Under the pieces are notes generated by a model. That model was not told where the DNA came from and made no database searches. It worked only from the letters and a program-made list of their open reading frames with translations. Positions 6,201-20,793 of a stretch of 64,000 bases of DNA are shown here, in pieces (positions within the stretch are counted from its first letter, which is position 1; each line of letters opens with the position of its first letter). The position numbers were made by a program, and so were the translations under genes. Origin of the DNA: Inhella crocodyli (GTDB taxonomy: Bacteria > Pseudomonadota > Gammaproteobacteria > Burkholderiales > Burkholderiaceae_C); assembly GCF_004004565.1 (NCBI RefSeq), contig NZ_SACM01000001.1, positions 744,001 through 808,000 on the forward strand. Reading direction: 5' to 3'.

Positions 6201-9200
6201 TTCAAAGCGCTGAGCACCGACAACATCCAAGCCCTGACGACCGCGCAAGCCGCCGCGCTGACCACGCTGCAAACCAAGGCGATGACGACCGACCAGGTGG
6301 GCGCTTTGGAAACCGACGACCTGCGGGCCCTGAGCACCGCGGCCTTGTCGGGCCTGGGCTCCGACCAGATCGGCGCGCTCAGCACCGACAACATCGTGGC
6401 CCTGACCAGCCAGCAAGCGGCCTCGCTGAGCACGGCCCAGGTCAAGGGCCTGAGCACCGATCAGTTGGTGGCCCTGGCCACGGACGACCTGCGCGCCCTG
6501 AGCACGCAAGCCCTCCAGGCCCTGTCCACCGACCAACTCAACGCCATGGGCACCGCGCAGTTCGCGCAGCTCACCAACGCCCAGGTGCAGAGCCTGAGCA
6601 CGGGCCAAGTGGCGTCGCTGGAAACGGACGATCTCAACGCCCTGAGCACGGCGCAGTTTGCGGCGCTGCGCACGGCCCAGATCGCCGTCTTGACCACCGA
6701 CCAGATCGGCAGCCTGCAAAGCGATGACCTCGTCGCCCTGGGCTCGGCCGGCTTGCGCGCCTTGGGCAGCGACCAGGTTGGCGCCATCGGCACCGCCAAC
6801 GTCCAGGCCATGACGAGCCAGCAATGGGGCTCGATCACCAGCACGCAGATTGCGGGCGTGACCACCGACCAACTTGGCGCCTTGGAGTCCAACGACCTGC
6901 GGGCCCTGGCCACGGCCACCCTGCGCGCGTTGACCTCCGACCAACTCGGCAGCCTGAGTTCGGCGCAGTTCCAGCAACTGCTCACCGCGCAATCGGCCAG
7001 CCTGGGCACCGGCCAGATCGCGGCCCTGGCCACGGACGACCTCAACGCCTTCGGCACCCAGCACTTCGCCAGCTTCACCAGCGCCCAGGTGGCCGCCCTG
7101 ACCAGCGACCAACTCGGCAGCCTGGAGACCGACGACCTGCGCGCCCTGGGCAGCAACGGCATCCGCGCCCTCAGCTCGGCACAGATCGCCGCGCTGAGCA
7201 CCGACGGCATCGTGGCCCTGACGACCGCACAAGCCACCACGCTGAGCTCCGCCCAGGTGGCCGGCCTGAGCACCGACCAGATGGTGGCCCTGGCCACCGA
7301 CGACCTGCGGGCCTTGAGCACGCAGGCGCTGTCCAAGCTGACCACGGCCCAACTGGACGCCATGGGCTCTGACCAGTTCGGCGCGCTGGCCACCAACCAA
7401 AGCCGCGGCCTCACCACGGCGCAGCTGGCGGCCCTGAGCACCGACGACCTCAATGCCCTGGGCACCCAGCACTTCGCCACCTTCAGCACCGACCAAGTGG
7501 CTGCGCTGACGACCGACCAGGTCAACAACCTGCAAACGGCCGACGTGGCCGCCATCGGGGCCAACGGCATCCGCGCCTTCAGCTCCAAGCAAATCGGCGC
7601 CCTGAGCACCGACGGCATCGTGGCCCTGAGCACGGCGATGGCCGCCAACCTGAGCACCAGCCAAGTGGCCGGCCTCACCACCGACCAAATGGCCGCCTTT
7701 GCCACCGACGATCTGCGGGCCCTCGTGGCCGGCACGGTCCGCGCGCTGAGCACCGACCAGCTCAACGCGATGACCAGCGACCAGTGGGCGAACCTCACCA
7801 CGACGCAAACCTCGTCGTTGACCACGGCCCAGATTCGTGGCCTGGAATCCGACGACCTGGTGGCGATGGGCACGGGCCAGTGGGCGTCGATGACCTCGGC
7901 CCAGTTGGCCGCGCTGACGACCGATCAAATCGGTTCGATGCAAAGCGCCGACATCGCCGCCATCGGCAGCAACGGCATCCGCGCGCTCGGGTCCGCCCAG
8001 ATCGCGGCCATCAGCACCGATGGCATCGTGGCCCTGGGCACCCAGCAGTTCGCGGTGCTCACCAGCGCCCAAGCCGCCGGGTTGACGACCGACCAGCTCG
8101 ACGCCATCGAAAGCGCCGACATGGCCGGCCTGTCCACCGCCGCGCTGCGTCAGCTGAGCACCGACCAGTTCACGGTGCTCGATTCGGCCCAAGTTTCGAA
8201 GCTGACGACAGCGCAAATCAGCGCGCTCACCTCGGCCCAGATCGGCACCCTGTCCACGGACGAGGTGGTGGCCCTGAGCACCGCACAAGTTCGTGCGTTG
8301 ACCTCGGCCCAAATGCTGGGCATCACCACCGAGCAGTTGGCGGCCATGGCCACCGACGACGTCGCGGTGCTGACGACCGCCCAGTTCAAGGCCTTCGATT
8401 CGGCCGACTTCAGCGCCCTGACCAGCGACCAAGTGGCCGCGCTCAGCAGTGCCCAAGTGGTAGGCATCACCAGCGACCAAGTCGTGGGCATCAGCACCGA
8501 CGCCATCGGCTCGCTGGGCACCGCCGCCTTGCGCGCCCTGGGCACCGCCGCCTTCGCGGCCCTGACCACCGACCAGATCGGCGCCCTGAGCACCGACCAG
8601 GTGGCCGCGCTCACCACCGGCCAGTTGGCCGCCATGAGCACTGCCCAGGTCGTGGCCCTGGAGACGGCCGACTTCGCCCTGCTGACCACGGGACAACTGC
8701 GGGCCTTCTCGTCGGCCCAGATCGGGGCCATCGAGACCGACGACTTGCGCACCCTGGGCACCGACGACATCGCCGCCTTCACCACGCTGCAGATCGACGG
8801 GCTGACCACCGACCAGATCCAGGCCTTCACGACCGACCAGGTCAAGGGCTTCGAGACGGCCGACCTGGGCAGCATGAACATGGACCAGGTGCTGGCCTTC
8901 ACCTCCGACCAGACGGGGGCCATGAGCACGGCACAGATCAACGCCCTGTTCCTGGCCACGCCCATCATGCTGGACCTGGACGGCAACGGCATCCAAACCC
9001 TGTCGGCCAGCCAAGGGGTGAACTTCGACCTGAACGGCGACGGACAGAGCGCGAAGTGGGGCTGGGCGGCCGGCAACGACGGCTTCCTGGTGATGGACCG
9101 CAACAACGACGGCGTCATCAACGACGGCAAGGAACTCTTCGGCTCGGGCACCCGCTTGGCCGACGGCACCCGTGCCGCCGATGGCTTCGCCGCCATGGCC

Positions 9201-9659
9201 GCCGAAGACAGCAACCGCGACGGCAAGCTCGACGCCCAGGACGCCAACTGGAGCAAGCTGCAGGTCTGGGTGGACGGCGACCACGACGGCGTGACCGACG
9301 CCGGCGAGCTCAAGAACTTGGCCGAACTGGGCATCACCTCCTTCGACCTCAGCGCGGCCAAGGGCAGCGACGTGAACAACGGCAACTTCGTGGGCCTGGT
9401 CTCCAAGTTCACGAAGGACGACGGCAGCACCCACACGCTGGCCGACGTCTGGTTCGCCAAGGACACGACGCCACCTCCGGCCGACGAGGTGATCGCCGCC
9501 GCACCCACGGCGCTGACCCTGCCTGGCACGACGGCCACGCCGATGGGCAGCACGGATGGCGCGGTGAGCGACTTGGCCAGCCTGCGCCACGGTGGCCTCA
9601 CGCCGAACTTGGTCTACAAGGGCGACGACGACGAGCGCTTCGTCCCGCCGATCATCTAA
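237..9659 (+). CDS. Giant octapeptide-repeat protein with C-terminal calcium-type loops, predicted type I secretion substrate
   Basis: The product is 3140 residues. The start is certain: an in-frame TGA at 219-221 is followed by the only ATG, at 237. Residues 7-2902 are about 362 consecutive octads with consensus x-L-[ST]-T-[DA]-Q-[VI]-x; almost every octad has Ser or Thr at position 4 and most also at position 3. I see no cysteine. Residues about 2910-3060 carry Asp/Gly-rich loops of EF-hand or dockerin type, such as DLDGNG, DLNGDG, DRNNDG, DSNRDG and DGDHDG. The tail of about 80 residues ends in VPPII. There is no signal peptide, no membrane segment and no RTX nonapeptide. The nearby minus-strand type I secretion genes and glycosyltransferases suggest an exported, probably O-glycosylated adhesin, surface-layer or matrix protein. 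Export and glycosylation are inference; the repeat structure is read directly. Confidence 0.93.
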   Translation: MASLISSLTSDQIAALSTVTLARLTSDDWAAFNTNQIQALTTDQVRSLSSQAFGFLSTEQFAAFETRDLQVISTAALSTLKTDMLNALSTDQMGALTSAQVKGLTTGQIASLVSDNVNALTTAQFANLSTTQLGALTTDQVSVLESADLVAIGSTGIRAFSSAAVGALSTDNIAALSSTQAAVLTSTQAKGLTTDQIDALGSANVGVLSTDLLRSLTTAQIAAMDSAQFSALKSSQVQAFSTAQISALPTDTLNALGTAQFNALSTTQVSALTTDQLASLETDDLRALSTNALRSLSSAQVGALSTDGVVALTTAQAASITSNQAKGLSTDQLGALQTDDLRALSTDTLRSLSSNQVGALSTDNIVALTTGQAAALASNQVQGLSTDQTGALQTDDLRALGTATLRALSTDQLGALGSDQLGALTTVQVQNLTTQQVAGLDTDDLNAFGTAQFAAMTTGQLTGLTTDQVASLQTADLVAIGSAGLRALNSAQVGALSTDGVVALTTTQAASLTTGQAAGLTTDQMAAMATDDLRALSSATLRALDSDQLGALTSTQLGQLTTAQIQALTTGQLAGLATDDLNALTTGQFAALTTAQLRSLTTDQLGSLETDDLRALGSAGLSALTSAQIAALSTDGIVALTTQQAASLSTAQAAGLSTDQMVALATDDLRVLNTATLRALTTAQLDAMGSDQFGNLTSTQVQSLTTLQVSKLGTDDLNALTSAQFGQLTSTQVSVLTTDQLGSLETADVVGLGTQGLRTLSSAQMGALSTDGIVALTTAQAAAIGSTQAAGLTTDQMGALETDDIQRLTSVALRQLSTDQIGALSSDQLGSLTSSQVQALTTGQISTLATDTLNALGTAQFAALSTTQVRSLTTEQVSGLETADLRALGSAGIATFTTGQIAAINTDGIQAMTTAQFAALASGQAAGLTTDQIVALQTDDLRAIGTATVRALSTAQVDALGSDQMAALTSQQLQGLSTGQVAALSTDDLNALTTDQFGQLLTSQVAVLTTTQMSALETADVVALGTTGVRALSSAQLGALSSDSVVALTTAQTSVLTTAQVQGLNTDQVGVIETLDVRSLTTDALRALSTAQLDALTTDQFAQMRTNQVQALRTNQIAAIGTDDLNALSTDQFAAMTTAQVAALTTNQVSSLETADLVAVGVNGVRALGTGQIGAISTDGIVAMTTAQFAALSSAQVAGLSTDQIANLETDDLRALSTDALRALSTNQIGALSTDQLAQLTTNQVRALTTAQLASLGTDDLNALGTDQVAALTTNQIVALTTDQVASLETADLVAIGSSGTRALTTAQFAALSTDSIVALTTAQAAQITSAQAAALSTDQVGALATDDFRALSTAALSGFSSRNIGALSTDNIVALTTLQASTLTTAQVKGLSTDQMVALATDDLRALSTQALTTLSTDQLNAMGTDQFAQMTNAQVQSLTTGQVTSLETDDLNAFGTAQFAALRTGQVSAFSTDQIANLQTNDIVALGSAGIRVLTTAQLGAMSSDQLGSLTSQQVQGMTTGQVSSLATDTLNALGTTQFAAMSTAQVRAFTTDQVNNLETNDLRAIGSAGVAAFTTAQVGAISTDGIQAMTTAQFAAIASGQVAGLTTDQIAAIQTDDVQALGTSSLRTFSTAQLDAMGSDQIAALTSRQVQGLGTGQVAALSTDDLNALTTTQFGQLLTSQIAAMTTNQVGSLETADVVAIGSAGVKALNSGQIGALSTDNVVALTTAQAAVLNTTQVKGLTTDQIGVIQTDDLRALSTEAVRGMSTDQLGALSTDQISSLRTQQTQSLLTSQVASLSTDNLNALKTEHFATLTTGQVAALTTGQVNNLETTDVVALGTNGVKALSSAQIGALNTDGVVALTTAQVSVLSTTQVAGLTTDQNPVIQTDDVRALSTAGIRSFTTAQLDALTTDQLRNMTTAQVQALSTAQLVSLGTDDLNAFGTAQFAAMSTLQLASLTTDQVASLETADLVAIGANGVKALTSAQFKALSTDNIQALTTAQAAALTTLQTKAMTTDQVGALETDDLRALSTAALSGLGSDQIGALSTDNIVALTSQQAASLSTAQVKGLSTDQLVALATDDLRALSTQALQALSTDQLNAMGTAQFAQLTNAQVQSLSTGQVASLETDDLNALSTAQFAALRTAQIAVLTTDQIGSLQSDDLVALGSAGLRALGSDQVGAIGTANVQAMTSQQWGSITSTQIAGVTTDQLGALESNDLRALATATLRALTSDQLGSLSSAQFQQLLTAQSASLGTGQIAALATDDLNAFGTQHFASFTSAQVAALTSDQLGSLETDDLRALGSNGIRALSSAQIAALSTDGIVALTTAQATTLSSAQVAGLSTDQMVALATDDLRALSTQALSKLTTAQLDAMGSDQFGALATNQSRGLTTAQLAALSTDDLNALGTQHFATFSTDQVAALTTDQVNNLQTADVAAIGANGIRAFSSKQIGALSTDGIVALSTAMAANLSTSQVAGLTTDQMAAFATDDLRALVAGTVRALSTDQLNAMTSDQWANLTTTQTSSLTTAQIRGLESDDLVAMGTGQWASMTSAQLAALTTDQIGSMQSADIAAIGSNGIRALGSAQIAAISTDGIVALGTQQFAVLTSAQAAGLTTDQLDAIESADMAGLSTAALRQLSTDQFTVLDSAQVSKLTTAQISALTSAQIGTLSTDEVVALSTAQVRALTSAQMLGITTEQLAAMATDDVAVLTTAQFKAFDSADFSALTSDQVAALSSAQVVGITSDQVVGISTDAIGSLGTAALRALGTAAFAALTTDQIGALSTDQVAALTTGQLAAMSTAQVVALETADFALLTTGQLRAFSSAQIGAIETDDLRTLGTDDIAAFTTLQIDGLTTDQIQAFTTDQVKGFETADLGSMNMDQVLAFTSDQTGAMSTAQINALFLATPIMLDLDGNGIQTLSASQGVNFDLNGDGQSAKWGWAAGNDGFLVMDRNNDGVINDGKELFGSGTRLADGTRAADGFAAMAAEDSNRDGKLDAQDANWSKLQVWVDGDHDGVTDAGELKNLAELGITSFDLSAAKGSDVNNGNFVGLVSKFTKDDGSTHTLADVWFAKDTTPPPADEVIAAAPTALTLPGTTATPMGSTDGAVSDLASLRHGGLTPNLVYKGDDDERFVPPII
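255..8942 (+). repeat. 24-bp (octapeptide) tandem repeat array with a 408-bp super-repeat
   Basis: The array holds 362 octads with no phase break. Super-repeats begin at 255, 663, 1071, 1647, 2055, 2463, 2871, 3279, 3687, 4095, 4671, 4911, 5319, 5727, 6135, 6711, 7119, 7527, 7935 and, degenerate, 8343. The spacing is 408 bp (17 octads) except for three of 576 bp (24 octads) and one of 240 bp (10 octads). Landmark octads with an Asp pair or its relic occur at positions 1, 8 and 14 of the 17: an LETADL type followed by AIGSxG, an ATDDLR type, and a GTDDLN type. The copies vary at synonymous and non-synonymous sites. Confidence 0.95.
1071..1406 (+). repeat. Two tandem copies of the 168-bp (7-octad) module
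   Basis: The dyad GACGAC of the TDD landmark octad occurs at 1083, 1251 and 1419, exactly 168 bp apart. The super-repeat starting at 1071 therefore carries an extra 7-octad block (1071-1238 and 1239-1406). The same gain explains the 576-bp super-repeats starting at 4095 and 6135. The 240-bp unit at 4671 is the reciprocal loss. Confidence 0.85.
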
Positions 9660-10335: not shown

Positions 10336-11151
10336 TCAGCGCGGCCGGCGCGTGGCCTGGGCCAGCACGCTGGCGCTGAGCGCGTCGAACTGCTGCAGGT
10401 ACTCGCCCGAGCCCGTGTCGCGCCAGGCCCGCTTGAGGGCCTCCATCGCGATCAACTGCTCGCGAAACGGGGACAGCATGCTGAACCAGGGCACGGCAAA
10501 GGGGCTGAGCGCGGCGACGCGGTAGTCGCCGCCCCAGCACAGCAGCGACGCAAAGCCCTCGCCCACGAAGACCTTGCGCTGCGCACCGCCGCCGTAGCTG
10601 GTGGCGGCGCTCAAGGCCTCGCGCATCGGGCCCTCGCCCTGCGCGATCAGCACCTCCACCCAGGCCAGCCACTGGCGCCAGAAGCGGGGGGTGGCCACCA
10701 GGTAGTTCGAGAACACGGCCACGCGGCTGTCCATGACCACCTTGTTCAGGTCCACCGGCACCCCGGCCTGCAAAAGCACCGATTGGGCCACGGCCAGGTA
10801 GCCGGGGTTGAAGGCCTCGCCGCCGTGGAAGACGCTGCGAAAGGCCATGTGCACGTCGGGCTGGGGCGAAAACAGGCAGACCTCGGCCTGCGGATGGGCC
10901 GCCGCGAAGGCGCGCACCTCGGCGGCGCCCAAGCCGGTCTTTTGCCGGAACTTGGGGCTGAAAAAGCCGTACAGCGCGCCCTCGTCCATCGGCTGGGCGC
11001 GCAGCCAGTGGGCGATGGGCCACAGCTCGTACCAATCGGGCCGGGGGTTGGCGCGGTTGTCCAGCAGGGTGAAGCCGGGCTCCATCGCGGCCGCGGTGGC
11101 CTCGCTGTAGCCGATGTGCAGCAGGTGCACGGGGCGGGGGCTAGCGCTCAT
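10336..11151 (-). CDS. Unrecognised protein of the glycosylation cluster
   Basis: A 271-residue soluble protein, no signal peptide or membrane segment. The start at 11151 is chosen because MSASPRPVHLLHIGYSE begins compact, conserved-looking sequence, whereas the upstream in-frame extension is low-complexity. Notable stretches are YELWPIAHWLR, LYGFFSPKF, SPQPDVHM and YGGGAQRKVFVGEGFAS. It is rich in Trp, Phe and Tyr, as sugar-handling enzymes often are. It is the last of three same-strand genes after the methyltransferase and the GT2-like glycosyltransferase, separated from the latter by 155 bases. A sugar-transfer or sugar-modification role is inferred only from that position. I cannot assign a family with confidence. 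Confidence 0.75.
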   Translation of the reverse strand: MSASPRPVHLLHIGYSEATAAAMEPGFTLLDNRANPRPDWYELWPIAHWLRAQPMDEGALYGFFSPKFRQKTGLGAAEVRAFAAAHPQAEVCLFSPQPDVHMAFRSVFHGGEAFNPGYLAVAQSVLLQAGVPVDLNKVVMDSRVAVFSNYLVATPRFWRQWLAWVEVLIAQGEGPMREALSAATSYGGGAQRKVFVGEGFASLLCWGGDYRVAALSPFAVPWFSMLSPFREQLIAMEALKRAWRDTGSGEYLQQFDALSASVLAQATRRPR

Positions 11152-11306: not shown

Positions 11307-11975
11307 TCAATCTCCCCATTTGGCGAAGTACTTGGGCAACTCGGCGCGCCAAGCGGCCGAGAAGTTGCCCGCGCTGGCGTGCGTCACGGCCAGGGGCCAG
11401 GTGCCCAGGCGCAGCCCGGCGGCGCGGGCGCTGCGGCAAAAGTCCAGGTCGTAGAGGTGGAACTGGAAGCGTGGGTCGAAGGCCACCCCCGTGGCGCGCA
11501 GGCGGTCCACGCGGGCGGCCAGCAGCAAGCCGTCCAACAGCTCGCAGTCGGCGGGCGCCGGGCCAAAACGGGTGACGTGGGCGTCGGCGCCGTGGGCCAC
11601 GGTGCCGCTGAGCTGCTCGATCGCGTCCCAGGTGCCGCGGTCGTCGACAAAGCCCCAGCCGGGCTGCAGGGGCAGGCGCCGGCGGTTGCCCGCGATGCCG
11701 ACCACGTCGTAGCGCTGCAGCGCCTCGGTCAGGCGGTCGACCACGTGGTAGTCGTCGAAGCCCACGTCGTCGTGCACGAAGACCACCAAGTCGTCGTCGG
11801 CGCACTGCGCCATGCCGGCGTTGTAGACCGCCGGCAGCCCTGCGCGGTTCTCGAAGGCCACGACGGCGCGCAGGCGGGCCTCGAACTGCAGGCGCTGCAG
11901 GCTGCGCCCGAGCAAGGTGCCGGCACCGAACTCGGCCGCCGTGGCCCGCGTGGCGCTGACGAGGACGACGCCCAT
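11307..11975 (-). CDS. GT2-like (GT-A fold) glycosyltransferase
   Basis: A 222-residue protein predicted to transfer a sugar from a nucleotide donor in the cytoplasm. The pattern fits the GT-A-like 'glycosyltransferase like family' (Pfam Glyco_tranf_2_5 type): NRAGLPAVYNAG, then the metal-site-like DDDLVVFVHDDVGFDDY around residues 62-79, and later FQFHLYDLDFCRSARAAGL and an AVTHASAGNF segment. It is short for a GT2 enzyme. It starts two bases after the stop of the methyltransferase, so the two are translationally linked. Given the Ser/Thr-ladder substrate and the GT41 gene nearby, it may extend the first O-linked sugar; donor and acceptor are unknown. Confidence 0.8.
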   Translation of the reverse strand: MGVVLVSATRATAAEFGAGTLLGRSLQRLQFEARLRAVVAFENRAGLPAVYNAGMAQCADDDLVVFVHDDVGFDDYHVVDRLTEALQRYDVVGIAGNRRRLPLQPGWGFVDDRGTWDAIEQLSGTVAHGADAHVTRFGPAPADCELLDGLLLAARVDRLRATGVAFDPRFQFHLYDLDFCRSARAAGLRLGTWPLAVTHASAGNFSAAWRAELPKYFAKWGD

Positions 11976-11977
11976 GC

Positions 11978-12646
11978 TCAAGCCGGCCGCAGGCGGAACA
12001 CGTACTGGATGGGGGTGGCGTCCTGCTGCGCCTGCGCCGGGTCCAGGCCGAAGGCACTGGCAAAGGCGCCCACCGCCGCCAGGGCTTGGGCCTGCTGCGG
12101 CGCGGGCACCTGGCGCGACACGCCGGCTTCGACCCGCCAGCCGGTGCTGGCGAACATCTCCAGCATGGTTTGGCGCGTGAACCAGCGGATGTGGGTGCGG
12201 TCCATCAGGCCTTGGTCTTCGTAGCGGAACTGGCCGCTGAGCAGGCGCCACTGCACGCTCCAGTGCTGGGCGTTGGGGATGCAAGTGACCAGGCTGCCGT
12301 CGGCGTCGATGCGCTCGCGGATGCGGCTGAGCATGCGCCAAGGGTCGCGCAGGTGCTCCAAGCAGTCGCCGAACACCCAGCAGTCGCTGGGGAACAGGTC
12401 GGCCAAGGCGGCATCGTCGAGCTGCTCCACGTCGGCGGCAAAGGCCCGCTGGCAATGGGCGGCGGCGCGCGCGGCGTAGTCGGGGTCGATGTCGATGCCC
12501 ACGTAATGGCTGTCCGGGTGCTGGCTGCGCCAGGCGCGCGCCATGGCCCCGTTGGCACAACCGACCTCCACGATGCGGCGGCTGCCAGCCGGGATGTGGG
12601 CCAGCAGGTCGAGGTTGACGTTGTCGTGCGCAGGGGTTTGCTTCAT
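11978..12646 (-). CDS. Class I SAM-dependent methyltransferase
   Basis: A 222-residue Rossmann-fold methyltransferase of the Methyltransf_11/23 type. Motif I is IVEVGCANGAMARAW (about residues 24-38), motif II includes YVGIDIDPDYA, and the post-motif region WVFGDCLEHLRDPW matches small-molecule or sugar methyltransferases. The start at 12646 gives MKQTPAHDNVNLDLL directly before motif I; an upstream in-frame ATG at 12748 would add a low-complexity tail that crosses the divergent promoter region, so it is less likely. It is first of the three-gene minus-strand group and two bases from the glycosyltransferase. Methylation of a glycan end is a reasonable but unproved role. Confidence 0.85.
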   Translation of the reverse strand: MKQTPAHDNVNLDLLAHIPAGSRRIVEVGCANGAMARAWRSQHPDSHYVGIDIDPDYAARAAAHCQRAFAADVEQLDDAALADLFPSDCWVFGDCLEHLRDPWRMLSRIRERIDADGSLVTCIPNAQHWSVQWRLLSGQFRYEDQGLMDRTHIRWFTRQTMLEMFASTGWRVEAGVSRQVPAPQQAQALAAVGAFASAFGLDPAQAQQDATPIQYVFRLRPA

Positions 12647-12777: not shown

Positions 12778-13686
12778 ATGAACGCTGTGATGCCCAACGC
12801 TCTCCGGTCCCGGCCCGCCCGCTGGCGCGCTTGCCGAGGCGTCGCCTTCGGCCTGGTGGCCCTGTGCGTCGCCGCGGCGGCGCAGGCCCGATGCAGCCGC
12901 CCGCTGCAGGCCCCGGTGGCGCCCATCGGCCTGGGGGTGACGGTGGACGCCGGCCAAGTGGGCGGCGTGTACCCTACGGTGCTGCGCGAGTGGGCGGTCC
13001 AGCAAGGCTGCGAGCTGCAATTCAGCCCGGTGCCGCGGGCCCGCCAAGAGCTGTTGCTCGAGAACGGCCACGCCGACCTGATGATCCCTGCCAGCCGCAG
13101 CAGCCGCCGCGACGCCTGGGGCGACTTCGTGCCGCTGCTGCAGGCCCGCCCGGCCGCCATCAGCCTGGGCGGCCGCCGGCTCTACCTGAGCGACCTGGAC
13201 CAGGTGCTGGCCCGCAAGGAACTGCGGCTGGCGGTCGTGCGGGGCTTCGACTTTGGCGAGCGCTACCGCGAGGTGCTGGCGCAACTGCGGCAGGCCGGGC
13301 GCTTGGTGGAGGAGGTCGATGCCGTGGCCGTGGCCCGCGTGCTGCAGGCGGGCATGGCCGACCTGACGGTGATGACGCCCACCATCATGTGGGGCGCCTT
13401 GCAAGGCGACGATCGCATCAGCCCGCTCGCCGACCAGTTGCGCGTGGACGCGCTGCAGGACTTCGATTGGTCGGAAACGGGGGTCTACCTGTCGCGGCAA
13501 GCCCTGGCCGAGCCCGACCGACGCCACCTGATGCAGATGTTCCGCGACCCCCGCCTGTCGCAGCGCGTGTGGACCTTGACGGTCGAGGCCTACGCCGGCT
13601 TGCCGCTGGAGGGTTGGATGCGCCCGGTGCCGACCCCGCCGCTCAGCGCAGCAAAGCCGTCACGCCGCGGCCCATCGAGCCCATGA
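12778..13686 (+). CDS. Periplasmic solute-binding (SBP family 3-like) protein
   Basis: A 302-residue exported protein. The ATG at 12778 has a GAGG five bases upstream; a second ATG at 12790 is possible. A signal peptide runs to about residue 38 (hydrophobic VAFGLVALCVAAAAQA). The mature part resembles bacterial extracellular solute-binding family 3: LGVTVDAGQVGGVYPTVLRE, then NGHADLMIPASRS, then a short region before the C-terminus. No ABC permease or ATPase is adjacent, so it may be a sensor-type or orphan binding protein. It faces the methyltransferase group divergently, and its 3' end overlaps the convergent TolC-like gene by 44 bases. Confidence 0.75.
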   Translation: MNAVMPNALRSRPARWRACRGVAFGLVALCVAAAAQARCSRPLQAPVAPIGLGVTVDAGQVGGVYPTVLREWAVQQGCELQFSPVPRARQELLLENGHADLMIPASRSSRRDAWGDFVPLLQARPAAISLGGRRLYLSDLDQVLARKELRLAVVRGFDFGERYREVLAQLRQAGRLVEEVDAVAVARVLQAGMADLTVMTPTIMWGALQGDDRISPLADQLRVDALQDFDWSETGVYLSRQALAEPDRRHLMQMFRDPRLSQRVWTLTVEAYAGLPLEGWMRPVPTPPLSAAKPSRRGPSSP

Positions 13687-15046
13687 CGGCCACGGCCTGC
13701 TGGGCGTCGTAGAGCGCGTTGATCTGGGCCACGCGCAGGCTGTAGTAATCGGCCTCCGCGCCCATCACGTCGAAGAGCGATCGACGCCCCAGTTGCTGCC
13801 ACTGCTGCAGGGTGGCCGCGCGCAACTGCTGGCTGGCGCGCAGCAACTCGGCAATCCGCTTGGCGCGGTCCAGGCTGTTGCCGGCGGCCTCGTGGATTTC
13901 GGTGAGGCGCCAGGTCTTGGCGTCCAGGGCTTCGTCGCGCTGCGCGTTGGCGGCCTCGGCCCGGCGGCGGGCGGCGCTCAGTTGGGGCTCGTCGGTGGCG
14001 CGCCACAGCGGCACGGTGACCTGCACGCCGCCGATGTAGTCCACCCGCCGTCCGTTGCCCGCTGCGGCGTTGGCGCTGCCCAGCCAGCTCACCTGGGGCT
14101 TTTGTCCGGCGGCGGTGGCCTCGGCCAGGCGCTGCGCGGCCAGGGCCTGGGCGGTGGCGGCACCGACATCGGGGGCGGCCAACAGGTCTTTCTGCAGCAG
14201 GCCCAAATCGGGCAGTTGCGCCAGCACCGCCGAAAGGCTGCCCACCGGCGGCAGCGGATCGCCCACCAAGCGGCGCAGCCGCGTCTCGTTGCTCTTGAGC
14301 AGGTCCTGCGTGGTGGCCAGCGCCAACTCGGCCTGCTGCTGGTTCTTCTGCGCCTGCACCAGCTCGCTGGCGCGCCCCGGGTCGAGCTGGGTGATCGTCT
14401 GCAGGGCCTCGACCAAGCAGGCCATCTTGCGCACGTACTGGCCGTAGACCTGCGATTGCAGGCTGTAGCGGCTGCGGTCCAGGCTCAGGCTCACGGCCTG
14501 CAGGGCCACCTGCTCGGCGGCGTTGGCGCGGCCCGCGGCGGCGGCTTCGCCCAGTTGCCGGCGCCACTCGACCAATTGCTTCTGGCGGCCCCAATCCCAC
14601 AGCGGCCCGCCGATCTGCAAGGCGGCGCGGGCTTCAACGCCGCTGGAGAGGTTCACGCCGTTCAAGTGGCTGCCGCCGTAGCCCCCGGTCAGGTTGAGCT
14701 GCATCTGGGGCAGGCTGGCGGCCTGGGCGTCGCGCAGGTCGTCCCGGGCCGCGGCCTCCAGCAGTTGCGCCACGTTGACGCTGCGGCTGCGCTGCACGGC
14801 GCTGTCGGCCACCTGGAGGAGGTAGGCGCGGGGGTCGCTCTGCGCCTGCACCGCCTGGGCCGGGTTGGCCGCACCCGCCGCAGCGGGGCGCAGGGCCTCG
14901 TCGTCGCCGCCGCAGCGCACGCCGCTCGGGGCGGCGGGGGCCACGGGCACCGCCGGTGGCGCCTTGGGCTTTTTCTTGGCCGCGCGCTGGGCGTGGGCGG
15001 GCCCCAGGGCCAGGCACAGGCTGAGCATCAACAACAAGGCACGCAT
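13643..15046 (-). CDS. TolC-like outer-membrane factor of type I secretion
   Basis: A 467-residue protein. The start at 15046 gives a classical signal peptide (MRALLLMLSLCLALGPAHA). A Lys/Pro/Ala-rich linker follows, and the rest shows the two-fold heptad-rich coiled-coil pattern of outer-membrane efflux proteins, with VEARAALQIGGPLWDWGR and the second-half equivalent VQVTVPLW about 220 residues later. It would form the trimeric channel-tunnel that receives substrate from the ABC transporter and fusion protein encoded immediately upstream. It is the last gene of that minus-strand operon, 90 bases after the fusion-protein stop. The cargo is most likely the giant repeat protein. Confidence 0.88.
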   Translation of the reverse strand: MRALLLMLSLCLALGPAHAQRAAKKKPKAPPAVPVAPAAPSGVRCGGDDEALRPAAAGAANPAQAVQAQSDPRAYLLQVADSAVQRSRSVNVAQLLEAAARDDLRDAQAASLPQMQLNLTGGYGGSHLNGVNLSSGVEARAALQIGGPLWDWGRQKQLVEWRRQLGEAAAAGRANAAEQVALQAVSLSLDRSRYSLQSQVYGQYVRKMACLVEALQTITQLDPGRASELVQAQKNQQQAELALATTQDLLKSNETRLRRLVGDPLPPVGSLSAVLAQLPDLGLLQKDLLAAPDVGAATAQALAAQRLAEATAAGQKPQVSWLGSANAAAGNGRRVDYIGGVQVTVPLWRATDEPQLSAARRRAEAANAQRDEALDAKTWRLTEIHEAAGNSLDRAKRIAELLRASQQLRAATLQQWQQLGRRSLFDVMGAEADYYSLRVAQINALYDAQQAVAVMGSMGRGVTALLR

Positions 15047-15136
15047 GGCGACGGGTCCGGAGGACGGAAAGCGACAGGCGTTACTGCACCACGCCAAGCC
15101 CCCGGCCTGTGCGCCGAAAAACAGGGCTTTGCGCCC

Positions 15137-16327
15137 TCACCTCTCGCGCAGCGCTTCTTGGCTCTTGAGCATCGGCCGCAACAGCACGCTGAGCACCGAG
15201 CGCTGGCCGGTCTTGATCTCGACCGTGGCGGCCATGCCGGGGATCAGCGGGGCCGGCTCGCCCCGCACCGGCTTGAGGGTGTTGCGGTCGGCCACCACCA
15301 GCACGCGGTAGTAGCTCGCGTCGGGGTTTTTGTCCGGGTCGCCAAAGGCGTCGGGGCTGATGTAGTTGACCTTGGCGTGCAGACCGCCGTAGAGGCTGTA
15401 GTCGTAGCCCGAGAGCTTGACCTCGGCCGCTTGGTCGAGCGTGACGAAGCCCACGTCCTTGGGCTTGACCCGGGCCTCGACGATGACGCGCCCGCCGATG
15501 GGCGCGATCTCCATGATGGGCGCGCCCGAGGTGACCACGCCGCCGACGGTGTTGACCTTGATGCTCTTGACGACGCCCGCCACCGGGCTGGTGAGCGTGG
15601 TGCGCTTGAGCTGGTCTTGGCGAACGACCATCTGCTCTTCGATCACCGCCAGCTCGTTCTTGACCTTCACCAGTTCGGCGGCGGCATCTTGGCGAAAGCG
15701 GCTCAGCTGCTGGCTGCGGCTGGCCTGCAACTCGCTGACCTGGCGCGTCAGGCGCATGACCTCGACATTGCTCATCAGGCCCTGCTGGGCCATTTGGCGC
15801 GCCATCGCCAGCTCGCGCTCCACCAGGCCGATGGAGCGGCTCAAGCCCGCCAGGCCGTCGTCCAAGGCGCGGCGGCGGGCCTCGAAGCTCTCGCGCTCGG
15901 CCTGCTGGAAGCGTGGGCCCTCTTTCAGCTCGGGCGGGAAGCTCAGGGCCGTGCCGTTGGCCTCGGCGCTCAGCCGGGCGGCGGTGGCCATGAGCGCCAG
16001 GCGCCGCAAAGCGCCCTCGTTCTCGGCCGCCTCCACGCGGGTTGGGTCGAGGCGCACCAGCTCCTGGCCGGCGACGACTTGCTGGCCCTCGCGCACCAAC
16101 AATTCGCCCAAGAGCCCCGGCTCCAGGCTGGCGATGACCTGTTCTTTGCCGTCGGGCACCAGGCGGCCTTCGGCGCGCGCCACCTCGTCGACCTGCGCCC
16201 AAGCGGCCCAGCCGATGAAGCAGACCACGAAGGCGATCATCAGGTAGAGCGCCCAGGTGGCCTTGGGCAGGGCCTCGGCCGTTTGCGCGGCCTGCAGGCT
16301 GCTCAGGTACTGGCGCTCGTCGCTCAT
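15137..16327 (-). CDS. HlyD-family membrane-fusion protein of type I secretion
   Basis: A 396-residue periplasmic adaptor. One N-terminal membrane anchor (about residues 24-44, ALYLMIAFVVCFIGWAAWAQ) follows a short cytoplasmic tail. A lipoyl half-motif (VIASLEPGLLGELLVREGQQV) and its partner (LTSPVAGVVKSIKVNTVGGVV) flank a long alpha-helical hairpin, and beta-barrel domains close the C-terminus. Its ATG overlaps the ABC transporter's stop by four bases (ATGA), showing translational coupling. It would bridge the inner-membrane transporter to the TolC-like protein next in the operon. The length is normal for the LapC/HlyD group. Confidence 0.92.
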   Translation of the reverse strand: MSDERQYLSSLQAAQTAEALPKATWALYLMIAFVVCFIGWAAWAQVDEVARAEGRLVPDGKEQVIASLEPGLLGELLVREGQQVVAGQELVRLDPTRVEAAENEGALRRLALMATAARLSAEANGTALSFPPELKEGPRFQQAERESFEARRRALDDGLAGLSRSIGLVERELAMARQMAQQGLMSNVEVMRLTRQVSELQASRSQQLSRFRQDAAAELVKVKNELAVIEEQMVVRQDQLKRTTLTSPVAGVVKSIKVNTVGGVVTSGAPIMEIAPIGGRVIVEARVKPKDVGFVTLDQAAEVKLSGYDYSLYGGLHAKVNYISPDAFGDPDKNPDASYYRVLVVADRNTLKPVRGEPAPLIPGMAATVEIKTGQRSVLSVLLRPMLKSQEALRER

Positions 16328-18687
16328 ACCGAGGGCGAGCGCTGCACGGGCTGCGACGCCGGGTGGATGCGAACCTTGGCCGCCTCGGCGGTTTCACCCG
16401 GCGCGGTTTGGCTCGGCTTGGCCCCGCTCAGCGCGGCCAGCACGGCGTCGCGCGCGCCGTCCATGACGATCTTGCCGTTGTCCACCACCACGATGCGCCC
16501 CACCAGCTCCAGCACCGCCGGGCGGTGGGTGACGACCACCAGCGTGCAGCCGCCGTTCTGGTGCAGGGCCTCGCGCAGTTGGCGCAAGAAAACGAGTTCG
16601 CTTTGTGCGTCCATGCTGCTGGTGGGCTCGTCCATCAGCAGCACCTGCGGCTGGTGCACCAGCGCCCGGGCCAAGGCCACCAGCTGGCGCTGACCGCCGC
16701 TGAGCAGGCCGCCCATCTCGCCCACGTGCAGGTCCCAGCCCTGCGGGTGGCTGGCCACCAAGCGGTCCAGGCCCGTCAGGCGGGCGACCTCCACCAGGCG
16801 GGCGGCGTCGATGTCGCCGCGGCCCATGGTGACGTTGTCGCGCAGCGTGCCGTGGAACAGGCGCGGCTCCTGGCCGACGAAGCCCATGCGGGCGCGGAAC
16901 TCGGCGGGGTCGACCTGGCGCAAGTCGATGCCATCGAAGTCGACCTGGCCCTCGGTGGGCTGGTAGAGGCCGGCCAGCAGGCGCAGCACCGTGCTCTTGC
17001 CCGAGCCGATGCGGCCGAGCACGGCCACGCGCTCGCCCGGCTCGATGCGCAGGTTCACGCCCTTGAGCACCTTGGGGGGATTGCCCTGCACGCCGGGCGG
17101 CAGGGGGTAGCAAAAGCCAACCTCGTTGAGGCTCAGCCGGCCCTGGGCCTGCTGGATGGAAACGTAGGCCTTGGCCGCGTCGCGCTCCTGGGGGCGCTTC
17201 ATCAGCCGGTCGATGTTGAGCATGGCGGCCCGCGCCCCTTGGTAGCGCGTGGCCAGGCTCACCAGGCTTGACAACGGCGCCAGGGCGCGACCGGCGAACA
17301 TCACGGCCCCCACCAGGGCGCCGCTGCTCAGGAGCCCATCCTGGATCAGGTACACGCCCCACACCAGCATCACGATGGTCAGGCCCTGCTGCATCGTCAT
17401 GGACAGGTTGCTGGCCAAGGCCGAGACGGCGCGCATGCGCAGGCTGTGCTCGGCGGCGATGGCACTGCTCATCTCGTAGCGACGCAGGAAGCGGCCCTGG
17501 GCGCCGGCGGTCTTGAGGTCTTCCAGGCCTTCCACGGCCTCCACCAAGGTGCCCTGCAAGTCGGCCTGCTCGGCCAGGTGCTTGCTGACGTTGCGCCGCA
17601 CCCGCAGCTGCATGTAGACCGTCACGGCCAGGATGAGCGGCACGGCCAGGGCCAGGACCCAGCCCAGCTGCCCCGCGAGCACGAAGGTCATCGCGACGAA
17701 CAGCAGCACGAAGGGCAAATCGGTCAGCACCGACAGCGAGGCCGAGGCGCAGAAGTCGCGCACCACCTCCACCTGCGCCAAGTAGTGCGCGTACGAGCCC
17801 GCGCTCTCCGGCCGGTGCTCCATGCGCACGCCCAGGGTGCGGCGGAACAACTCGGCGCCGATGAGCAGGTCGGCCTTGCGGCCGGCCAGGTCCAGCAGGT
17901 GGCTGCGCAGCTGGCGGGCGAACAGGTCGAAGGCCAGCGCGATGGCCGCGCCCACGGCCAGGGTCCACAGGGTGGTGGTGGCGTTGTGGGGGATGACCTT
18001 GTCGAAGATGACCGAGGTCACCAGGCCCGTCACCAAGAGCAACACGTTGGACAGCAAGGCCGCCAGCATCGAGGCCCGGTAGTAGGGCACGAAGCGCCGC
18101 AAGGTGCCCCAGAGCCAGTGCTTGGCCGGGTCGCTGCCGTCGGCGGCTTCGCTGCGGCTGCTGGCGCTTTCCTCCTTGGGCGTGGCCACCAGCACGAAGC
18201 CGCTGTAGGCCTGCTCCAGCTCGGCCGCCGTGGCGGCGGCCGGCTGGCCCATGGCCCCATCGGCATCCGGGAAAACGACCTGAAAGCGCTCGCTATCGGG
18301 GTCGCGCGCCACCAGCACGCAGGCGTCGCCCTCGCCCAGCAACAGGATGGCCGGCAGCAGCAAAGGGTTGATGTCGGCGATGCGCTTGGGCAACAGGCCG
18401 GCGTTGTAGCCGGCCTCGCGCAGCAAGCGCAGGGCCTGGTCCGGCATCACGCGGCCGTCCACCGGTTGGCCGGCGCGCAGGCTCTCGGGGCTGCGGGCCC
18501 GCCCGTGGTGGGCCGTCAGCCACGCGATGCACTGCAGCAGGGGATCGGTGCTGCCGCTGGGGCGCGGCGCGGCGGCCGGGGCCGGTGCGGCCGCCCCCTC
18601 GGCCCCGGTGCCCACCGCCGCGACCTGCAAGGGCGAACGGCCGCGCGGGGCGGCCGGTTCGTCGAAGAAGTCGGGGCGGTTGGCCAT
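16324..18687 (-). CDS. LapB/HlyB-like type I secretion ABC transporter (permease-ATPase)
   Basis: A 787-residue fused ABC exporter. After a Pro/Ala-rich head of about 50 residues comes a C39-peptidase-like domain (DPLLQCIAWLTAHHG) that lacks a clear catalytic Cys-His arrangement and so probably docks, rather than cleaves, its substrate. Six membrane helices span about residues 190-480. The ATPase shows Walker A GRIGSGKST (about 556), signature LLSGGQRQ (about 658), Walker B VLLMDEPTSS (about 679) and the switch His in VVTHRP. The degenerate N-terminal domain is typical of transporters for very large adhesins such as LapB. The gene begins ten bases after the GT41 glycosyltransferase stop and overlaps the fusion-protein gene by four. 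Confidence 0.92.
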   Translation of the reverse strand: MANRPDFFDEPAAPRGRSPLQVAAVGTGAEGAAAPAPAAAPRPSGSTDPLLQCIAWLTAHHGRARSPESLRAGQPVDGRVMPDQALRLLREAGYNAGLLPKRIADINPLLLPAILLLGEGDACVLVARDPDSERFQVVFPDADGAMGQPAAATAAELEQAYSGFVLVATPKEESASSRSEAADGSDPAKHWLWGTLRRFVPYYRASMLAALLSNVLLLVTGLVTSVIFDKVIPHNATTTLWTLAVGAAIALAFDLFARQLRSHLLDLAGRKADLLIGAELFRRTLGVRMEHRPESAGSYAHYLAQVEVVRDFCASASLSVLTDLPFVLLFVAMTFVLAGQLGWVLALAVPLILAVTVYMQLRVRRNVSKHLAEQADLQGTLVEAVEGLEDLKTAGAQGRFLRRYEMSSAIAAEHSLRMRAVSALASNLSMTMQQGLTIVMLVWGVYLIQDGLLSSGALVGAVMFAGRALAPLSSLVSLATRYQGARAAMLNIDRLMKRPQERDAAKAYVSIQQAQGRLSLNEVGFCYPLPPGVQGNPPKVLKGVNLRIEPGERVAVLGRIGSGKSTVLRLLAGLYQPTEGQVDFDGIDLRQVDPAEFRARMGFVGQEPRLFHGTLRDNVTMGRGDIDAARLVEVARLTGLDRLVASHPQGWDLHVGEMGGLLSGGQRQLVALARALVHQPQVLLMDEPTSSMDAQSELVFLRQLREALHQNGGCTLVVVTHRPAVLELVGRIVVVDNGKIVMDGARDAVLAALSGAKPSQTAPGETAEAAKVRIHPASQPVQRSPSV

Positions 18688-18697
18688 GGTGCGGGGC

Positions 18698-20602
18698 TCA
18701 GGCCTCGGGGTTCAGCGGCAGGCCGGCCCGGGCCTGGGTGGCCAGGCGCTCGAACACGCGCTCGATCTCGCGCACGATGGCCGGCACGTCGAACAGCGCG
18801 CTGTGCCGGCCATGCTCGGCCAGGTAGCGCTTGTACGAGGCAGACCGAGCCGGGTTGCGGCCGATCTGCACCGCCAGGCGCTCGTACTCGGCCAGGCTGG
18901 TGGCGATCAGGTCGGGCAGGCCCACGTGGGTGAGCAGGCTGCCGCACATGCGGCTGATGTAGCTCTGGCCGCTGAGCGTGAGGATGGGCGCGCCGGCCCA
19001 CAGGCAATCGCTGGCGGTGGTGCCGGCGTTGTAGGGAAAGGTGTCCAGCACCAGGTCGGCCAGGGCGAAGCGCGCCAGGTAGTCGGCCGGCAGCACGCGC
19101 GGGGCAAACACCAAGCGCTCGGGCGCCACGCCGTGCGCTTGCGCGGCCGCGCGCAGGTTGGCCTCGGCCCAGCGGTTGTCGGCCAACAGCCAGAGCACCG
19201 AGCCCGGCACCTGGTGCAGCACGCGCATCCAGCAGGCCACCATCTCTTGGCTGTACTTGTGGTTGTTGTTGAAGCTGGCGAAGACGAAGGCGCCTTCGGG
19301 CAGTTGGTACTGCGCGCGGGTGGGCGGGGCGCCGATCTCGCGCTGGCGATCACTCACTTGGTAGCAGGTGTTGAGGTAGAGCGGCCGCTCGCTGCAGTAG
19401 CGCAGGTACTCGGGCTGCATGACGTAGCGGTCGGCCAGCATCCAATCCACCCCGGGCACGGCCGAGGTGGCGGGCAAGCCCAGGTAGCTGACCTGCACCG
19501 GCGCGGGCCGGTTCACGAGGATGTTGGGGCGGGCACCGCTGGTGAGCCCTTGCAGGTCCACCAGCACGTCGATGCCGGCCTTGGCGATGCGCTGGGCGGC
19601 CTCGTCGTCGCTGACGCCATGCAGGCTGTCCCAGTGCTCGAAGCTGCGCTTGATGCGCGCGCGCAGCGCCGTGCCGTCTTCGCGGCCCCAGTCGAAGGCG
19701 AAGAGCTCGAAGCGTTGCTTGTCGTGCAACTCGTACAACTCGGCGGTGAGCAGCCCCACGGCGTGCATGCACAGGTCGCCCGAGGCGTAACCGATGCGGA
19801 TGCGCCCTTCGCGCCGCGCCGGTCCGTGCAGCCGGTGGTAAGGCTTGCCACTGGGCTTTTGCACCTTCTCGTGCACGAAGCGCTGGGCGGTGAGCAATTG
19901 CATGGCCGGTTCGTCGCTGGCCGAGAGCATGGCCAGCAACGAGGTGTGCACCCACAGCGCGTTCTCGCTGACCTCTCCGAAGGGCTGGTGCACCGGCCAC
20001 TCGCACTGCTTCTGGCGGATGTGCACCCAGTGCTGGATGACGTCGCCCTGCCCCGGCTTGAGCAAGAGGCTGCGGTGCATCAGTGCCTCGGCCTCGTCGT
20101 AGCGCTTGAGCTGCTCCAGCAGGCGCGCTGAGTTGTTCATCGCGTGCAGTTGCAGGTCCAGGGCGTCGGCGCCGACGCAATCGAGCTGGGCGATGCCGTC
20201 GAACACCGCGCGCCACTGCGCCAAGGCCTCGTCGGGCTTGCCCTGGTGCTCCAACTGGTGCGCCAGGTTGAGCTGGGCCTGCGCGAAATCGGGCTTGACG
20301 GACAGCGCCCGCCGGTAAGCGGCTTCGGCCTTCGCGTGCTGGAACAGGCTGCCCAGCAAGGTGCCCCAATTGAACAGGGCCAGGGCCTGGTGCGGCGTGT
20401 CGGTCTTGGCGATCCAGGTCTCGTACAGCAGGGCCGCCAGGTCCAGGCGCCCCGCCGCTTGCCAGGCGTTGGCCTTGGCCATCAAGTCGCCCAGGGGCCA
20501 CTGCCCCGAGGCGGCCAGGGCCAAGGAAGCCTGGGGCTCGGGCGGCTGGGCGGCGACGGGCTGGAGGGGGAGGACGTTGCTTGATGCGTTGCTGGATGGC
20601 AT
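18698..20602 (-). CDS. GT41 (SPINDLY/O-GlcNAc transferase-like) TPR glycosyltransferase
   Basis: A 634-residue cytoplasmic enzyme expected to put a sugar from a nucleotide donor on protein Ser/Thr. The first 270 or so residues contain tetratricopeptide repeats (for example FNWGTLLGSLFQHAKAEAAY and AQLNLAHQLEHQGKPDEALA). The GT-B catalytic half shows GT41 hallmarks: RPAPVQVSYLGLPATS, DWMLADRYVM, FVFASFNNNHKYS, GSVLWLLADN, ADLVLDTFPYNAGTTASD, LWAGAPILTLSG and SRMCGSLL. The start at 20602 is the first ATG that leaves out proline-rich non-homologous upstream sequence. It heads the operon with the type I exporter (ten-base gap), tying glycosylation to secretion. The Ser/Thr-ladder repeat protein is the obvious candidate acceptor; donor sugar unknown. 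Confidence 0.9.
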   Translation of the reverse strand: MPSSNASSNVLPLQPVAAQPPEPQASLALAASGQWPLGDLMAKANAWQAAGRLDLAALLYETWIAKTDTPHQALALFNWGTLLGSLFQHAKAEAAYRRALSVKPDFAQAQLNLAHQLEHQGKPDEALAQWRAVFDGIAQLDCVGADALDLQLHAMNNSARLLEQLKRYDEAEALMHRSLLLKPGQGDVIQHWVHIRQKQCEWPVHQPFGEVSENALWVHTSLLAMLSASDEPAMQLLTAQRFVHEKVQKPSGKPYHRLHGPARREGRIRIGYASGDLCMHAVGLLTAELYELHDKQRFELFAFDWGREDGTALRARIKRSFEHWDSLHGVSDDEAAQRIAKAGIDVLVDLQGLTSGARPNILVNRPAPVQVSYLGLPATSAVPGVDWMLADRYVMQPEYLRYCSERPLYLNTCYQVSDRQREIGAPPTRAQYQLPEGAFVFASFNNNHKYSQEMVACWMRVLHQVPGSVLWLLADNRWAEANLRAAAQAHGVAPERLVFAPRVLPADYLARFALADLVLDTFPYNAGTTASDCLWAGAPILTLSGQSYISRMCGSLLTHVGLPDLIATSLAEYERLAVQIGRNPARSASYKRYLAEHGRHSALFDVPAIVREIERVFERLATQARAGLPLNPEA

Positions 20603-20727
20603 GGCGGAACCTGGGCGCAATCCCGGTCCTGTCGATGTTAGGCGCCGGGCCCCCACCCCGCCCGACGAATTGGCGGGCAAGCCCCTGGCATTTGCCAACA
20701 TCTGCCGGCCCCGCGCCGCTTCGCCCA

Positions 20728-20749
20728 GCCTGCCCGCACCCGGGCAGGC
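20728..20749. other. Perfect inverted repeat between divergent genes
   Basis: A 9-bp perfect stem (GCCTGCCCG/CGGGCAGGC) encloses a four-base loop in the divergent region between the GT41 operon and the hydroxyacid dehydrogenase gene. No T-run follows on either strand, so it is not a simple terminator. It could be an operator or an mRNA leader hairpin. Confidence 0.4.
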
Positions 20750-20793
20750 CCCATGGGGAAGCCCCCAGGGGCGGCGGCACAATGCCCGCCGCC

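Follow-up and report, generated by a model that had tools for sequence, protein, structure and literature searches.

OGT transfers GlcNAc, and SPY fucose, to Ser/Thr residues of proteins. For most bacterial OGT-like enzymes the acceptors are, to our knowledge, not known, and we know of no tie between XcOGT or the animal O-GlcNAc transferase and a secretion system. On the export side, LssB/LapB-type systems carry giant repetitive substrates, glycosylated serine-rich proteins leave by the accessory-Sec pathway (GtfA/GtfB with SecA2), an analogy for what follows, and the substrate of FlmG in Caulobacter crescentus is exported by the flagellar route. The available parts of the FlmG paper describe a TPR region that binds the substrate and a C-terminal GT-B domain that O-glycosylates this exported protein in the cytoplasm (PMC7591256). 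In the HMW1C/HMW1/HMW1B system of Haemophilus, a GT41 enzyme works alongside an exporter and glycosylates the exported protein, a very large one of the cell surface, at several sites, according to the parts available of two reports (PMC3983070, PMC3012730). Our search of the open-access literature, outside which most subscription papers lie, found, among the matches listed, no description of a system combining GT41 with a type I exporter, no paper pairing type I secretion with O-GlcNAc transferase, and none mentioning the protein family ALTTAQ (PF20080).

We analysed a stretch of 64,000 nucleotides from Inhella crocodyli, here called the window (contig NZ_SACM01000001.1, positions 744,001 to 808,000). 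A preliminary description of this DNA had reported a four-gene cluster in the order GT41, ABC transporter, membrane-fusion protein (MFP) and TolC-like factor, and translation and family matches agreed with it (Table 1). In the translated window, 10 bases separate the GT41 and ABC genes, the ABC and MFP genes share a 4-base overlap, and about 90 bases lie between the MFP gene and that of the outer-membrane factor. Terminator-like sites numbered 5 in the region, against 4.2 expected by chance, and a promoter scan of positions 13000-21000 returned no sigma-70-like site (0.3 expected). The gene of the proposed substrate lies outside the cluster on the opposite strand, convergent with it. Most other scanned genes of the window look like housekeeping or transport genes; positions 28797-32687 (+) encode a large CHASE/multi-PAS histidine kinase.

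Table 1. Features of the secretion locus, in window coordinates, with the evidence for each.
Feature	Position	Strand	Evidence
Giant octad-repeat protein, 3,140 aa, probable exported substrate	237..9659	+	PF20080 in both ends scanned; mod-8 composition
Non-repeat C-terminal domain of the giant, 237 residues, possible type I export signal	8946..9659	+	DxDxDG motifs, acidic tail DDDERFVPPII; homologous ends in other octad giants
Glycosyltransferase-like protein, 271 aa, no Pfam family, possible accessory gene	10336..11151	-	Fold comparison
GT2-like glycosyltransferase, possible accessory gene	11307..11975	-	PF13712 27.7 bits, cut-off 27; start codon chosen
SAM methyltransferase, possible accessory gene	11978..12646	-	PF13489 56.7 bits; start codon chosen
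TolC-like outer-membrane factor	~13643..15046	-	PF02321 62.4 bits
Terminator-like hairpin directly 3' of the MFP stop	15123..15137	-	Terminator scan
HlyD-type membrane-fusion protein (MFP)	15137..16327	-	TIGR01843 323.8 bits; ATG 16327
Type I secretion permease/ATPase, LssB type	16324..18687	-	TIGR03375 770 bits; ATG 18687
TPR + GT41 protein glycosyltransferase, 634 aa	18698..20602	-	PF13844 251 bits; ATG 20602, stop 18698
D-2-hydroxyacid dehydrogenase, divergent, upstream of GT41	20581-21807	+	Family search

The 634-aa protein carries TPR matches besides its GT41 domain, for which the PF13844 cut-off is 25 bits. Its catalytic part belongs to the same family as XcOGT (XCC0866) and the animal O-GlcNAc transferase, and among solved structures XcOGT (2jlb) was its nearest relative at 245 bits, followed by animal OGT, with plant SPINDLY at 130 bits. 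The earlier label of a SPINDLY/OGT-type transferase needs one qualification: the catalytic part is closer to OGT than to plant SPINDLY. XcOGT H218 and K388, the catalytic His and Lys, are retained in the alignment together with the TTASD motif; the equivalents of the His, the Lys and the TTASD Asp (H280, K449 and D532) are invariant across 11 aligned orthologues. A second GT41 of the same genome (contig C10; L055 8510-10957, -) was rejected as part of the system: it also contains a methyltransferase domain together with a SEC-C motif, its neighbour is a protein kinase gene, and no exporter gene matched nearby.

The ABC protein exceeds the cut-off of the LssB model (693.1 bits), and its N-terminal region is weakly C39-like (PF03412, 15.1 bits, under the cut-off of 22). 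The MFP lies above its TIGR01843 cut-off of 208.65 bits; the outer-membrane factor passes PF02321 (cut-off 22) and, at 54.9 bits, falls under the TIGR01844 cut-off of 225.15. A second LssB-like ATPase of the same genome (contig C13, 40% identity) is followed by an MFP, but no octad protein was found on the 16.5 kb read there, and it was set aside.

A scan of named genomes with the GT41 alignment found 230 relatives, and we retained the best 80 (58–91% identity), which came mostly from Roseateles, Pelomonas, Paucibacter, Ideonella, Rubrivivax, Aquabacterium and related Burkholderiales; the best match among named genomes was in Inhella sp. LE19-195.1D (91%). This neighbourhood survey, which the preliminary description had proposed as a check, found an ABC gene starting no more than 500 bases from GT41 on the same strand in all 80 of these best-matching orthologues. 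The MFP gene came next after it in all 77 loci with enough contig. The linkage of GT41 with ABC and MFP is no local accident, because the ABC gene is next on the same strand in every one of these orthologues. An outer-membrane-factor homologue was present in 59 of the 80 loci; contig ends truncate several of the remaining 21, and this fourth gene is kept less consistently than the three before it. A stretch of the octad giant was seen in 9 of the 80, many of these loci ending at a contig end or at the 10 kb flank. The divergent upstream dehydrogenase lay within 2.5 kb in only 39 of the 73 loci with room for it; therefore, the order GT41-ABC-MFP is kept more strictly than the wider neighbourhood.

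Inheritance of the two proteins was compared at two levels. Across 60 genomes, GT41 orthologues (at least 60% identity) and ABC orthologues (at least 59%) occurred in the same 12, that of I. crocodyli included, and adjoined each other, the next best ABC protein beyond those 12 being 45% identical. One genome with a 45% ABC about 15 kb from a 41% GT41 (G042) was not counted; it contains no ALTTAQ protein, and the stretch has no octads. For the tree comparison, 46 rows were drawn randomly from the 79 in which both proteins were long enough. The GT41 and ABC trees gave a Mantel correlation of 0.806, a value that none of 999 shuffles reached. Of the strong branches, 21 of 26 in the GT41 tree were recovered in the ABC tree and 20 of 25 in the reverse direction, and strongly supported conflicts amounted to 3 and 5 branches. 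By these measures the two trees are largely congruent. The preliminary description had named separate inheritance of GT41 and exporter as the finding that would count against it: joint inheritance holds among the close orthologues, but five deeper GT41 relatives (46–50%) have no such exporter adjoining.

At the start of the window, the giant consists of about 360 octads without an indel, the period of 8 holding through the first 2,880 residues by mod-8 composition, with a consensus of approximately L-[T/S]-[T/S]-[D/A]-Q-[hydrophobic]-x-A. Ser/Thr occupies the second T/S position in 353 of the 360 octads and the first in 223, figures that rest on the mod-8 count, the octad pattern search itself having fixed an [ST] position. 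The giant contains no cysteine. A higher-order repeat of 408 bases (17 octads) runs over the array, and the listed spacings are multiples of 24 bases. The giant is a member of the ALTTAQ family, for which the Pfam line gives no function; PF20080 scored 405.6 bits for residues 1-488 (cut-off 26.4). Gly/Asp nonapeptide repeats of the RTX kind were not found: the period is 8, and there was no RTX Pfam match in the giant's two scanned ends. An antisense open reading frame of 3,101 aa over the octad array (285-9590, -) was rejected as a gene, the codon-score selection having taken the plus frame (2370), and is probably non-coding.

AlphaFold predicted a stretch of 30 octads with confidence (pLDDT 95.3, pTM 0.86) as a solenoid with approximately one five-residue helix per octad. 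Each predicted helix opens with the near-invariant Ser/Thr, which may therefore be conserved for structural reasons; the more variable T/S position preceding it is the other candidate acceptor. Foldseek gave the octad model only a weak resemblance to mesothelin (E 1.6e-4, TM 0.35) and VIA-align only a weak one to armadillo-type proteins (Z up to 7.0); in repeat proteins such resemblances may reflect no more than a shared arrangement. A viral library yielded three matches at E 0.001 with TM no higher than 0.33.

The C-terminal domain of the giant is single-copy in its own genome, and recurs at 43–77% identity in giants of other genera and in G017 and G424. The acidic tail ends in PPII, PPLI or similar in several of these giants, though not in all. 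Weaker copies (36–43%) occur in other open reading frames of G016, G424, G003 and G002, and the domain was not found in the loci of a distant family (f65, see below). The copy in G016 (C8:271820-274976, 41%) forms part of a 2,208-aa frame beside that genome's second LssB-like ATPase.

We next considered how GT41 and ALTTAQ proteins are distributed in a family sample of 250 genomes, defining an orthologue of this GT41 by E 1e-140 or better, a cut placed at a gap in the scores. Such an orthologue was present in 49 genomes of 29 genera; its identity was at least 56% in 44 of these and 46–50% in the other 5. PF20080 was found in all 49 genomes with the orthologue and in 16 of the 201 others (P = 2e-38, Fisher test uncorrected for ancestry). 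Those 16 genomes were also rich in other GT41 proteins: at E 1e-60, 13 of them had one, compared with 54 of the remaining 185 (P = 6e-5, in a Fisher test that ignores shared ancestry). In the 24 genomes whose available coordinates place giant and GT41 on one contig, the two lay 7.7–64 kb apart in 22, G591 (about 10 kb) among them, and the other two spacings were 219 kb in G005 and about 430 kb in G543. In seven genomes (G001, G004, G032, G563, G642, G626 and G538) the two are on different contigs.

A phylum sample gave PF20080 in 20 of 398 genomes (E 1e-7) and PF13844 in 128 of 398 (E 1e-10). GT41 was present in 17 of the 19 other genomes with PF20080 in this sample. In 10 of the 17 genomes with both, the two lay within 25 kb, against about 1.7 expected under a crude random model that takes GT41 gene numbers as rough halves of match counts. 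Caulobacter vibrioides was the only control genome to match PF20080, and it also matches PF13844. ALTTAQ proteins were found with no GT41 detected in G251 (L197), G444 (L198) and G028, in the last of which the ALTTAQ copy is cut at a contig end, and at E 1e-60 also in G468 and G472. The ALTTAQ proteins of such genomes may be unglycosylated versions or may be served by another enzyme.

The 16 ALTTAQ genomes without the orthologue were represented by G017 (L047) and by GT41 stretches from six more. Four of these (G568, G654, G630 and G463) have an exporter with ABC at 53–61%, MFP at 51–55% and outer-membrane factor at 37–46% identity, and a distant GT41 (33–38%) follows the outer-membrane factor, at the 3' end of the exporter cluster. 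The loci with such a distant 3' GT41 at the orthologous exporter are L242, L243, L246 and L247, and probably L245. G549 has an outer-membrane factor and then GT41 in the same order, with the MFP 4.7 kb on, and the stretch ends before any ABC gene. The preliminary description had made GT41 the first gene of the operon; that position is not essential, GT41 being the last gene in four or five relatives. That GT41 belongs functionally with the exporter, as was first suggested, is well supported by these replacements in four relatives and probably a fifth, together with the 80 conserved neighbourhoods, the shared presence in 12 of 60 genomes and the largely congruent trees. In G571 a distant GT41 lies close to the giant, and the 20 kb read there contains no type I exporter; the same holds for the stretch read in G017. 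GT41 and ALTTAQ were no more than 22 kb apart on one contig in 6 of the 9 ALTTAQ genomes without the orthologue for which there were coordinates; in G582, G617 and G500 they were on different contigs of drafts.

Other arrangements were found further out. In G593, G560, G649 and G655 (L249-L252; GT41 46–50%), GT41 is near the giant and no exporter matched on the stretch. G622 (L253) has, all on one strand, the giant, an ABC protein (29%), an MFP (29%), GT41, a methyltransferase and a glycosyltransferase-like protein, and G424, of the same class, has the giant and GT41 (48%) on one strand, and these are followed on the opposite strand by a divergent-type ABC (28%) and an MFP (26%). Six loci of the distant family f65 (L189-L194) combine ABC, MFP and giant, in that order, with a divergent GT41; the octads of this family mostly read L-T-T-T-Q or L-x-S-T-Q. 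Three more f65 loci (L195, L196 and L201) have GT41s and a giant, the one in L201 weakly matched, with no ABC match on their stretches. At L195 3048-12275, L196 350-7069 and L201 5858-12637, single frames of approximately 2,460–3,780 aa carry tandem GT41 domains, two of them beside clear octad giants. L200 has an exporter and GT41, but the 38 kb read there showed no octad giant; in G404 GT41 adjoins a giant, and the stretches read contained no type I exporter.

In a tree of GT41 sequences, the 5' clade formed one branch (branch value 95) and the 3' GT41s fell in another, with further ALTTAQ neighbours (98), while the f65/f62 rows made two more clades (100 and 99). The label 'near ALTTAQ' needs 7 changes on this tree, in which rows L199 and L200 were labelled 'other' and row L059_1351 was left out for its very long branch. 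The loci were chosen for a nearby ALTTAQ, and the tree shows that several GT41 branches are involved with ALTTAQ giants, not how frequently.

Three genes between the giant and the exporter may be accessory to the system. The start of the GT2-like gene comes 2 bases after the methyltransferase gene, given the start chosen. The 271-aa protein was modelled at pLDDT 89.7, and VIA-align placed WbbM first (Z 13.2 over 190 residues at 3.1 A), with other glycosyltransferases at Z 8–9.5 and some nucleotidyltransferases among the matches; by this comparison its fold is of the GT-A type. Foldseek alone gave this model no match at E 0.001. Homologues of the GT2-like protein and of the 271-aa protein were each found in 6 of 117 linked loci and in none of 27 control GT41 loci, and methyltransferase homologues in 3 of 117 against 1 of 27, in a linked set that includes some genomes twice and in which most loci end soon after the exporter. 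Methyltransferase homologues were also present in 2 of 9 f65 loci, and one follows GT41 in L253. The association of these genes with the linked loci is suggestive only.

These data point to a conserved system larger than the preliminary description had drawn, comprising GT41, a type I exporter and an octad giant, with the giant at 237-9659 the likely substrate of both enzyme and exporter. From comparative genomics, we consider it probable that a cytoplasmic GT41 O-glycosylates the octad protein before its type I export. Several observations weigh against this: ALTTAQ proteins in genomes with no GT41 detected, deeper and other relatives in which GT41 is near the giant and the stretch read shows no such exporter, the L200 locus with exporter and GT41 but no giant found, the place of the giant outside the cluster and at times far from GT41, the possibly structural role of the near-invariant Ser/Thr, and the strong conflicts between the trees. 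On the preferred reading, GT41 would serve in the cytoplasm as the O-glycosyltransferase of a single exported protein. Most likely through its TPRs, it would recognise the newly made ALTTAQ protein and place O-linked sugars on Ser/Thr within the repeats, perhaps hundreds of them on one molecule; the glycan may then be extended or capped by the products of the neighbouring glycosyltransferase-like and methyltransferase genes. We infer that glycosylation precedes export: the LssB-type exporter would carry the glycosylated giant out of the cell, engaging it at its C-terminal domain and acidic tail. Beyond the cell, with about one short helix per octad, the protein would extend as a long solenoid, a sugar-coated fibre that may be surface-bound or released. 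We lean, if only slightly, towards the broader view that several families of Pseudomonadota share a class of export-coupled protein O-glycosylation not described until now, of which this locus is one example. GT41 would in that case have been recruited more than once, from different branches of its family, and would act with a type I exporter and accessory glycan enzymes to make a giant helical-solenoid fibre in which as many as hundreds of sugars follow an eight-residue register.

GT41 might instead work with the exporter on some other acceptor, such as the MFP, the outer-membrane factor or a second exported protein, its link with ALTTAQ being indirect. The position of the giant outside the cluster, and sometimes far from it, is in keeping with that, as is the exporter and GT41 pair of L200, near which no octad giant was found. 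Yet ALTTAQ accompanied the GT41 orthologue in 49 of 49 genomes, and in G404, G017, G571 and L249-L252 the DNA read has GT41 near a giant yet no type I exporter; therefore, the link between GT41 and giant holds independently of the exporter, and we think an acceptor of this other kind unlikely. The TPR region also fits a protein that is mainly a chaperone, keeping the giant soluble or guiding it to the exporter, with sugar transfer secondary or absent, and a chaperone role is discussed for HMW1C in the part available of one report (PMC3983070). The invariance of the equivalents of the catalytic His, Lys and TTASD Asp in all 11 aligned orthologues makes a mainly chaperone role quite improbable.

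Shared ancestry is a different kind of explanation, under which the GT41-ABC order would reflect only descent from one ancestor and no functional connection, and GT41 would modify flagellin or other proteins. The named loci do come almost wholly from one broad Burkholderiales group, and a TPR-glycosyltransferase protein acts on flagellin in Caulobacter, as the available part of that paper states (PMC7591256). Against this, the upstream neighbour is retained in only 39 of 73 loci, a distant GT41 stands in for the usual one at the same exporter cluster, and pairs of GT41 and ALTTAQ occur in other families. Mere common descent is thus very unlikely to account for the arrangement. O-glycosylation of the octad giant by GT41 before its export is the reading we prefer.

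On this reading, the genes around GT41 point to a likely acceptor with about 360 similar units of eight residues in a fixed register, and the target of a bacterial GT41 therefore becomes directly testable. If it is true, dedicated glycosylation extends to type I secretion, and the giant would be a natural repeat scaffold for the dense, regular display of sugars.

Each of the described systems resembles this locus in part. HMW1C differs in having an AAD domain in the position that TPRs take in other GT41 enzymes, in making N-linked hexoses and in its TpsB pore, whereas TPRs and a type I exporter are present here; neither a TpsB exporter nor an AAD in the place of TPRs was found at this locus. 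The substrate of FlmG is flagellin and its sugar is pseudaminic acid, and the name GT41 is absent from its description, as far as the available part of that paper goes (PMC7591256). The ATPase over the LssB cut-off and the HlyD partner are shared with LssB/LapB-type secretion of giant adhesins, and the outer-membrane factor is TolC-like by PF02321, but here a glycosyltransferase is the fixed neighbour of the exporter, and the probable substrate has octad helical repeats. A glycosyltransferase tied to the exporter of its substrate is a known kind of system, and this locus would be a new form of it.
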